A DNA stretch of 35,939 nt from Limosilactobacillus coleohominis (GTDB taxonomy: Bacteria > Bacillota > Bacilli > Lactobacillales > Lactobacillaceae): the NCBI RefSeq assembly GCF_016901675.1, contig NZ_JACJKU010000008.1, forward strand, positions 1 through 35,939, given 5' to 3'. Shown one piece after another: positions 19,246-21,792 of this stretch. Within the stretch, counting starts at the first letter, position 1. The number at the start of each line of letters is the position of its first letter. The translations under genes and the position numbers were made by a program. A model generated the notes under the pieces. It made no database searches and was not told the DNA's origin. It saw only the letters and a list, made by a program, of their open reading frames with translations.

Positions 19246-19656
19246 CTATTTGGCTGAATCAGTATTCTCACCATCTTCAGCAGAATCCTCAGCCTTATCT
19301 TCAGCCTTGATTTCTTGAGGAGCGGCTTCTTCTTTTGGAGATTCCTTAGTATCTGCTGGTTTAGTTTCATTACTTGTATTGGCCTTATTAGCTGATACCA
19401 CTCGTTGAATGGCAACAAGGTCAAATGTTAAGTAAATACCTTCACAGTCAAGCGTCACTGTTTTTTCCTTTTCGTTAACTTCACTAACAACACCGTGAAG
19501 CCGACCAATTGTTACAACGTGGTCCCCCGGACGCAACTTACTCATCATTGATTGATGTTCTTTCCGTTGCTTTTGTTGTGGACGGATCATGAAGAAATAC
19601 ATGAATACAACCATCAACAAAATCAAAATGATGCTTGACATACTTTGACTACCCAA
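19246..19656 (-). CDS. yajC: YajC, Sec translocon accessory subunit
   Basis: The 136-residue protein has an N-terminal membrane helix (IILILLMVVFMYFFMI), the YajC signature RPQQKQRKEHQSMMSKLRPGDHVVTIGRLHGVV, and a beta-rich core. A very acidic tail of about 45 residues, rich in Glu, Asp, Lys and Ala (EDKAEDSAEDGENTDS), makes it longer than E. coli YajC (110). YajC associates with SecDF-SecYEG. The start is TTG at 19656 with AAGGG at rather long spacing; ATG five codons later lacks a ribosome site. It occupies the usual place downstream of the tgt position. Confidence 0.9.
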   Translation of the reverse strand: MGSQSMSSIILILLMVVFMYFFMIRPQQKQRKEHQSMMSKLRPGDHVVTIGRLHGVVSEVNEKEKTVTLDCEGIYLTFDLVAIQRVVSANKANTSNETKPADTKESPKEEAAPQEIKAEDKAEDSAEDGENTDSAK

Positions 19657-19739: not shown

Positions 19740-20756
19740 TTACGACTTGATACCAATCTCACTTCGTACCTTGTTAAAGTATGAATTTAACCATCTCCAG
19801 TTACGCAATCCCAATAAATGATCACCGACTGAACTATGGATATGACTTAAATAATGTAAATATGATAAATTAACTTCGTTTTGAGCGGTTATATTGATTT
19901 TATCCTGACTATTTTGGTACTGTTCATAACTCACTTTTTCAATCTGATTATTAATATAGGTTTGTCCTTGATGAGCCATTTCAATGGGAATGCTGGTAAC
20001 AATGATATCAACACCTGCTAGTAATGCTAGCTTAATTTGCTCATTGCTGGTTGCTGCCAACATCCGTGGCTTGTCGTTTGGCAATATTTCGATCGTTTCG
20101 TGGACGATCCTTTGCCATTCAGTTTGTTCATCAGGAAGATTAGTTATTAGATAACCATCTTTACTACCGATTTGCTGATAATTTAATTTTCGCAGCTCTT
20201 TCAAACCGGCTCCGCCAATTACACCCCATGAACTTTCGCCTTGCTGTTGCCATTGTATATTTATTTTTAATGCCGTTTTTAAGTCGTCAACTGGTGCGTA
20301 GTAATATGCATTTTGAAACAATGGTAATTGAATATCTGCTTGGCCAATTTGTTGCAATTGTTGAGCTTGCTTACCAGTGATTCTTTTATGAGCACCTGAG
20401 TACGGCTCCTCATATCGAACACCCAATTCTCCGGCGTTTTTTTTGACTTTCTCTAAGGAGGAAAATTGATCCACAAATGAAATAACAGGCCCCGCCCAAT
20501 TTAAGAAACTTCCAACCGAATCACATGATTCCAATGTCTGCGTCCCTGGTTGAATGCTTAATGGCAAAATATTAACTGCTAATGATTGGCAACCAATTTC
20601 CCTTAGTTCTTCTGAAGTTAATGGACTAACTAACCCATTTTTTGCGTATGGAATCACAGCTGGAGTTTTAATGATTCCACTACTTGTATGCAAAATGCCA
20701 CTTCTAACGTGCTTATTAGTTAAACTTACCTGTTGAATTTCAAAAGTACTTACCAT
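19740..20756 (-). CDS. Degenerate tRNA-guanine transglycosylase (TGT) homologue, predicted catalytically inactive
   Basis: The 338-residue protein aligns along its length with bacterial Tgt (about 380): RSGILHTSSGIIKTPAVIPY at the start, LTSEELREIGCQSLAVN, NDKPRML, and a C-terminal YLHYL...GLRNWRWL. The key residues are gone. TDSGGFQ reads ISFVDQFSS (no active-site Asp), FDEC reads FQNA (147-150), GIxQG reads GVIGG, GG-L reads TNL, and the nucleophile region MFDCV reads IIVTS (251-255). The CxCxxC zinc ligands are absent and the zinc His is Arg. The frame is intact, with AGGAG 7 bases before the ATG at 20756 and ruvB 10 bases upstream. It may be a TGT pseudoenzyme; substrate or partner is unknown. 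Confidence 0.85.
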   Translation of the reverse strand: MVSTFEIQQVSLTNKHVRSGILHTSSGIIKTPAVIPYAKNGLVSPLTSEELREIGCQSLAVNILPLSIQPGTQTLESCDSVGSFLNWAGPVISFVDQFSSLEKVKKNAGELGVRYEEPYSGAHKRITGKQAQQLQQIGQADIQLPLFQNAYYYAPVDDLKTALKINIQWQQQGESSWGVIGGAGLKELRKLNYQQIGSKDGYLITNLPDEQTEWQRIVHETIEILPNDKPRMLAATSNEQIKLALLAGVDIIVTSIPIEMAHQGQTYINNQIEKVSYEQYQNSQDKINITAQNEVNLSYLHYLSHIHSSVGDHLLGLRNWRWLNSYFNKVRSEIGIKS

Positions 20757-20766
20757 GTCCATACTC

Positions 20767-21792
20767 CTATTTTTGGGGATGATACTCTATTCCGAGATGC
20801 TCATAAGCAGCAGGCGTGACCATTCGCCCACGCGGAGTTCTGGAAATAAAACCAATTTGCAGAAGGTATGGTTCATACATTTCTTCAATTGTATCAACCT
20901 CTTCTCCAATATTTGCAGCAATCGTTTTGACACCAACTGGACCACCATGATAAAAATTAATCATTGTCATCAACATTTTCCGGTCGACTTCATCTAATCC
21001 CTTATTATCGACTTGAAGTAACTTTAAAGCTTTAACAACGATCTCATGATCAATTGCAGGTTTCTTTGCAACCTGCGCAAAGTCACGAACTCGCTTTAAC
21101 AGCCGGTTGGCGATTCGGGGAGTTCCTCGTGAACGAAGAGCTAATTCATGTGCTCCTGAATCCTGAATTCGTACATTAAATATTCGGGAACTCCTCATGA
21201 TAATTTGATTTAACTCTGTCGCATTATAGTACGCCATGTGTTCCACGATTCCAAAACGATCTCGTAGTGGCGCGGATAATGCACCCGCACGTGTTGTGGC
21301 ACCAATTAGTGTGAATGGTGGCAATGGAAAATGAACTGGATGTGCAGTAGGTCCTTCACCAACAACGATATCAATATAAAAATCTTCCATTGCTGAATAT
21401 AGCATTTCTTCTACGACTTTTGGTAACCGGTGAATTTCATCAATAAATAAAACATCACCAGCTTGTAGCTCATTTAGTAAAGCTACTAAATCACCTGGCT
21501 TTTCAATTGCAGGACCGCTCGTTGTCTTAATATTAACCCCCATTTCATGAGTAATGACCATTGCTAACGTTGTTTTCCCTAGTCCTGGTGGACCATATAA
21601 TAAGACATGGTCTAATGCTTCTTCTCGGGATTTAGCAGCTGCTATGTAGACCTGAAGTTCTTTTTTTATTTTATCTTGCCCAATATAATCAGCCAATACT
21701 TGGGGACGGAGGCTTGTCTCGATTACATTTTCATCATGACCAGTGGACTGGTTCGACATAATGTTTGATTGATCACTCAATTGCCTGGCCAT
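20767..21792 (-). CDS. ruvB: Holliday junction helicase subunit RuvB
   Basis: This is the hexameric AAA+ motor that drives branch migration with RuvA. The 341-residue protein has Walker A GPPGLGKT, Walker [10 protein letters not shown], sensor 1 GATTRAG, arginine-finger region RDRFG and a C-terminal winged helix. The ribosome site AAAGGAG directly abuts the ATG at 21792 (no spacer); a TTG at 21780 would have 12 bases. The product differs by four residues. ruvA ends 9 bases upstream. Confidence 0.96.

Follow-up and report, generated by a model that had tools for sequence, protein, structure and literature searches.

Limosilactobacillus retains an aberrant TGT-fold protein in the tgt place between ruvB and yajC

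What is the role of a TGT homolog that occupies the usual tgt place between ruvB and yajC with none of the catalytic residues of the enzyme? The question arises from a first-pass annotation of the window (the whole stretch of 35,939 nucleotides that was analyzed), which described an open frame with a good ribosome site in the tgt slot, stripped of its catalytic and zinc residues. The features of the locus are as follows.

19740..20756, minus strand: gene of the TGT-like protein, 338 residues plus stop, without canonical active site or zinc ligands
20764..20768, minus strand: ribosome binding site AGGAG, seen in the sequence, 7 nt before the ATG at 20756 and overlapping the end of ruvB
20475..20477, minus strand: codon of F94, the place of catalytic Asp102 by alignment
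20442..20444, minus strand: codon of K105 (Ser113 in Z. mobilis TGT), Lys in 44 of 46 orthologs
20316..20318, minus strand: codon of F147, the place of catalytic Asp156 by alignment
20280..20303, minus strand: YYAPVDDL motif, residues 152-159, with P155 and D158 in all 43 core genus rows
19998..20000, minus strand: codon of V253, the place of nucleophile Asp280 by alignment
20767..21792, minus strand: ruvB, upstream neighbor (Pfam)
19246..19656, minus strand: yajC, downstream neighbor (Pfam)

No stop interrupts the 338 codons between the ATG at 20756 and the stop at 19740. The same frame has a longer reading (19740..20762, minus strand, 340 residues); the ATG at 20756 seems the likelier start because of the AGGAG at 20764-20768 and its 7 nt spacing. 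Pfam places mutS, mutL, ruvA, and ruvB upstream of the gene and yajC, a DHH protein, a DEAD-box helicase, and alaS downstream. Frame, ribosome site, and tgt slot are therefore as first described. No Rfam family was found in the window at the gathering threshold, and hence no preQ1 riboswitch at that threshold.

By profile the protein is a TGT-family member and falls short of Tgt proper. It scored 125.6 bits against Pfam TGT (PF01702, cut-off 26.3) over residues 19-336 of the 340-residue reading and 113 bits against the NCBIfam superfamily model TIGR00449, above the cut-off of 47.6. Against the NCBIfam Tgt equivalog TIGR00430 it gave 116 bits, below the cut-off of 306.75. All 10 proteins scanned from the genus were below the TIGR00430 cut-off, and eight of them pass NCBI's superfamily TGT model, which is a warning for automatic annotation. 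Aligned in Z. mobilis numbering, Asp102 is replaced by F94 (in ISFVDQF), Asp156 by F147 (FQNA versus FDEC), Cys158 by N149, and Asp280 by V253 (in IIVTS). GIxQG reads GVIGG and the GG-L loop reads TNL. The zinc site is likewise gone: CxCxxC is absent, there is no Cys at its three places, and His349 is Arg. The window protein matches none of the 16 scored catalytic and zinc sites. The Z. mobilis position numbers other than Asp280 are in register with the profile alignment. Every replacement named in the first-pass annotation is present in the sequence and in the alignment, and the alignments gave no sign of catalytic residues shifted to other positions. PMC3660597 identifies Asp280 as the nucleophile, which attacks ribose 34. 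As this Asp is Val and Asp102 and Asp156 are both Phe, the window protein, judging from its residues, cannot exchange the G34 base by the known mechanism. The term noncatalytic would apply here only in the sense of loss of the known base-exchange residues; given its lineage-specific invariants (K105 and PVDD), the protein could have a new activity.

The window genome (G000; 99.66% complete, 240 contigs) gave a single PF01702 match, and thus the second, active tgt that the first-pass annotation had proposed to look for was not found by this search. Across the genus, 46 of 50 Limosilactobacillus genomes gave a TGT-family match, one each, at 36-288 bits; matches in the sister genera typically exceed 500 bits, and all 14 control genomes had the family. 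An aberrant TGT was found in 40 of the 41 better-quality genomes of the genus. As 46 of 50 genomes each carry one intact aberrant TGT, the observation goes beyond chance, and the aberrant TGT is a genus trait rather than a one-species oddity. These counts bear on the comparison made in the first-pass annotation with QTRT2, the second eukaryotic subunit, which has the TGT fold without the nucleophile (PMC3660597). That the window protein is a similar helper subunit of a catalytic TGT is hardly credible, as its own genome has no second PF01702 match, 46 genus genomes have one per genome, and the zinc ligands kept in QTRT2 are lost here. The comparison thus failed for want of both a catalytic partner in the genome and a zinc site.

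The four genomes without a match gave nothing in a search with the genus alignment. In one of them (G279, locus L129, 2508-2620) the gene has been cleanly deleted: yajC starts about 90-110 bp behind ruvB, and none of the matches listed falls in the gap. In the other three the gene may have been lost or may lie outside the assembled sequence: the contig of G428 stops 65 bp after ruvB, and in G018 and G014 the locus is unassembled, with just partial RuvB matches of 29-32%. The RuvB of G279 is closest to that of G428 (91%), the contig of which ends just there.

Beyond these genomes, a scan of an 84,980-species collection with the genus alignment, which ran through a single motif (the YYAPVDDL region) and so finds only carriers of that motif, returned 34 stretches. 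Relatives are encoded by 31 of them, each from Limosilactobacillus or from uncultured Lactobacillaceae or Lactobacillus bins. When the window protein was the sole query of the same collection, none of the 51 pattern stretches was a relative. The relatives include L. reuteri, L. vaginalis, L. oris, L. panis, L. pontis, L. coleohominis, and L. ingluviei. The window species clusters with L. caecicola, L. coleohominis, and Candidatus L. excrementigallinarum at 47-48% identity (99/97 in the tree).

The queuosine pathway was then considered in the same genomes. QueA was found neither in the window genome nor in any of the 50 genus genomes, and it was present in nine of 14 named control genomes. QueT was also found in none of the 50, and QPTR (PF02592) matched in one, below its cut-off. 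Matches to QueC (PF06508) at E 0.001 or better occur in 48 of the 50 but are weak (at most 31 bits); 37 exceed the low cut-off of this model, and the frames matched are mostly of 378-660 residues. These matches may be other PP-loop ATPases. Among 101 Lactobacillaceae genomes, QueA is present in 74, and the TGT match of each of these reaches E 6e-143 or better. The 27 without QueA comprise four Limosilactobacillus, 16 listed others without a TGT match, and seven outside the listing. All 90 checkable Lactobacillaceae genomes outside the genus have either both tgt and queA or neither, and only Limosilactobacillus retains tgt alone.

Two observations concern canonical tgt in these surveys. Four sister-genus genomes (G200, G325, G338, and G400) gave two partial tgt matches each with weaker E values, perhaps frameshifted or broken genes, and the canonical match at G129:C1:95901-96962 is reported with one in-frame TAA.

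The loss of canonical residues is graded across the genus. The open-frame, dN/dS, column, and 16-site counts given here draw on all 46 orthologs, whereas the 48-row alignment holds 42 of them (L022, L023, L067, and L029 left out) plus six canonical TGTs. Comparison with 17 canonical TGTs, in which 214 columns are near-invariant, shows that fewer than 25% of the 46 genus rows share the canonical residue in 126 of these columns; in 14 columns at least 85% do. Asp102 is kept in 16 of the 46 orthologs, Asp156 in 13, and Asp280 in 25; all three are present in 12 and none in 21. The four zinc ligands are retained in 35. No ortholog has all 16 scored sites. Cys158 and Gly105 are found in none of the 46, Gln203 in seven, and Glu235 in one. 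The L. oris and L. pontis proteins lack Asp102 and Asp156 and have Asp280; that of L. vaginalis lacks all three. Different lineages have thus lost different catalytic residues, and the loss of every catalytic and zinc residue described in the first-pass annotation is true of the window species and not of the genus, in which 12 orthologs keep the three Asp residues.

The least diverged members of the genus are L018, L062, and L063 (genomes G013, G247, and G165; 268-288 bits). They retain Gln203, the GG loop, and the zinc ligands; the three catalytic Asp positions are occupied by K or Q, S, and E, and the gap to ruvB is wider (39-87 bp).

Because 25 orthologs keep Asp280, 12 all three Asp residues, and 35 the zinc ligands, some species of the genus might still exchange bases. 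Extended to the genus, this reading would make the protein a still active transglycosylase with an altered base or altered residues, for example in queuine salvage. A gut-microbiome reconstruction (PMC6593275) takes TGT-only gene sets, in 297 genomes, as queuine salvage. We regard such an activity as very unlikely given the complete absence of Cys158 and Gly105 from the 46 orthologs, the scarcity of Gln203 and Glu235, the lack of QueT in the 50 genomes with QPTR in only one of them below cut-off, and the loss of Asp at all three places in the window species. Applied to Limosilactobacillus, the rule of PMC6593275 that TGT-only means queuine salvage would misread the genus.

Retention of the gene under selection, as proposed in the first-pass annotation, is borne out. 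All 46 orthologous frames are open (283-363 residues, with starts assigned by a simple rule). Stops flagged inside L022, L023, L067, and L029 are located at the C-terminal end. Neither refuting observation named in the first-pass annotation, shifted catalytic residues or decaying homologs, was thus made. The dN/dS ratio could be estimated in 14 of 16 sister pairs chosen by hand and was well below 1 in each. In the nine pairs with dS <1 it was 0.10-0.23 (largest upper 95% bootstrap bound 0.47), whereas the RuvB values of these nine were 0.008-0.033. For the TGT-like gene, five pairs with dS >1 gave 0.06-0.23, and the remaining two, among them the window's own pair, were saturated. The 60 pairs that differ least at synonymous sites of RuvB include close pairs, not independent of one another, that reach 0.29. 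Comparisons of L086 with distant rows (dS >1 and unreliable across clades) gave 0.31-0.81, RuvB also being raised there (0.12-0.28). As a control, canonical tgt was taken ungapped from 28 sister-genus loci, with 10 pairs listed that are not all independent, one having a dS of 0. Five close pairs (dS 0.2-0.5) gave 0 to 0.019 and four pairs with dS >1 gave 0.07-0.10. The purifying constraint on the TGT-like gene is real; it is much weaker than that on canonical tgt in close pairs, although the ranges meet in distant pairs.

The fast evolution of the gene relative to ruvB in the nine close pairs, the parallel loss of catalytic residues, and the one clean deletion (G279) would be consistent with a slowly decaying relict kept only by its operon position between ruvB and yajC. 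However, a relict would hardly keep 46 of 46 frames open over so deep a divergence with dN/dS well below 1, nor would it fix new motifs and keep a confidently predicted fold. Moreover, in the 16 listed QueA-less genomes of the family outside the genus, TGT is simply absent. We judge this explanation improbable.

The place of the gene and its tree argue for vertical descent. In 43 of the 46 orthologs the start lies -8 to +19 bp from the end of ruvB, and the TGT-like tree, which is split from 14 canonical TGTs at 100/100, recovers the same species groups as the RuvB tree. Note that the deep forks of the two trees differ or are weak and that the program warned of long branches meeting. A phage or plasmid origin was considered and rejected given this descent and the lack of close mobile relatives. 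The genus-motif scan of viral contigs gave three stretches, none of them a relative. The L. reuteri protein as query of annotated phages gave 17 records, all below 60% identity (best of eight listed, 30%). The window protein as query of plasmids gave 43 records, also all below 60%; the eight listed have 23-25% identity, three being annotated Tgt and five carrying no annotation there. Four of the phage records (OR845897.1, OR848199.1, OR844993.1, and OR846599.1) carry no annotation and hold a TGT-like frame that is 28-30% identical to the protein of L. reuteri; one record is only 1.5 kb, and they are possibly host DNA in phage assemblies.

The fold appears to be preserved. AlphaFold2 models of the window protein (32 sequences; pLDDT 93.2, pTM 0.92) and of the L. 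reuteri ortholog (28 sequences; pLDDT 94.6, pTM 0.92) were confident, and the window model superimposed on Z. mobilis TGT (1q2r_A) with a Z score of 38.0 and an rmsd of 2.1 over 328 residues at 20% identity. The best Foldseek E value with the window model was 2.4e-25. An intact TGT barrel is thus predicted for the window protein, in line with the barrel part of the structural check put forward in the first-pass annotation.

On this barrel the genus has fixed residues of its own. The gained columns were defined on 43 core rows, with L018, L062, and L063 left out. In these rows P155 and D158 are invariant, V156 is conserved in 98%, and K105 and Y152 are each conserved in 95%. K105 is Lys in 41 of the 43 and in the three other rows, and is absent from L092 and L093. 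By profile alignment the corresponding residues of Z. mobilis TGT are T164 for P155, R167 for D158, P165 for V156, S113 for K105, and Y161 for Y152. According to the secondary structure of the model, K105, Y152, and PVDD are either in loops that lead from a strand to a helix (beta-to-alpha loops) or in the opening turn of that helix. The beta-to-alpha loop side carries the active site in TIM barrels.

These residues are the reason to consider a new enzymatic activity, the main rival of a binding role: K105, Y152, and PVDD, with the inherited G182, G184, E213, and R216, would form a site that modifies or cleaves a nucleic acid or nucleotide. Conservation of this order among orthologs that otherwise share as little as about 25% identity, and the position of these residues in the model, would both fit such a site. 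However, the invariants may be structural only, for example through a Lys-Asp contact between loops. In addition, D158 is Tyr in L018, L062, and L063, K105 is missing from L092 and L093, and the gene context suggests neither partner nor substrate. A new enzyme therefore seems to us an unlikely, if serious, possibility.

A binding role is what we infer to be most likely for the window protein because the barrel is retained, the gene is under purifying selection, and the new invariants lie near the former active site. We think it reasonably probable that the protein is a TGT-fold protein repurposed in place after queuosine loss, with binding as its likely function and no known exchange in this species. 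An ancestor of Limosilactobacillus would have lost the queuosine pathway (no QueA and no QueT), the order of events being our reconstruction. Its tgt, now close behind ruvB, would have been retained after that loss. Freed from base exchange, the gene would have diverged within the genus, with lineages losing different catalytic residues and the window species losing all of them together with the zinc site. The barrel would have been kept while new residues (K105, Y152, and P155-V156-D157-D158) became fixed near the former active site. The outcome may be a binding protein that reuses the inherited site for RNA, the anticodon arm of tRNA being the first candidate, or for a small nucleobase-like ligand. 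The retained pseudoenzyme of the first-pass annotation survives in part: a pseudo-TGT is retained under purifying selection, but the analogy to QTRT2 did not hold.

Across almost the whole genus the protein probably does a job different from that of TGT. A more tentative proposal, to which we give somewhat less than even weight, is that the orphaned tgt gave rise to a new protein family that has a conserved site of its own (K105 and YYAPVDD). If so, nearly all members of the genus keep a gene that is named after an enzyme which it no longer encodes. TGT is a highly conserved RNA-modifying enzyme of known fold and superfamily, and pseudoenzymes as such are also known. In the open-license PMC literature we found no report of genus-wide tgt conversion after QueA loss, of a Limosilactobacillus TGT, or of a dead bacterial TGT. 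The 46 natural homologs allow loss of enzyme chemistry to be watched while fold and gene remain under selection. Genetic tools exist for L. reuteri.

Among known systems, bacterial Tgt (TIGR00430; 1q2r) shares with the window protein homology over the full length, the predicted barrel, and the place between ruvB and yajC. The window protein differs from it in its score (116 of the required 306.75 bits), in having none of the 16 scored sites, and in coming from a genus without QueA or QueT. The archaeal enzymes ArcS and TgtA belong to the same superfamily; the L. reuteri ortholog scores 43 bits against ArcS, the best of the 10 genus proteins scanned, and 54 against TgtA, and the genus proteins are far below the respective cut-offs of 440 and 350. 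For the window protein itself, ArcS was not matched at E 0.01, and the TgtA score was 13.8 bits. With regard to DpdA-type DNA transglycosylases, three proteins scanned with PADLOC, a library that may or may not include a DpdA model, gave no defense-system match. Eukaryotic QTRT2 resembles the window protein in having a TGT fold without the catalytic nucleophile (PMC3660597), but its zinc ligands are retained and it depends on a catalytic subunit as partner, whereas the window species has neither.
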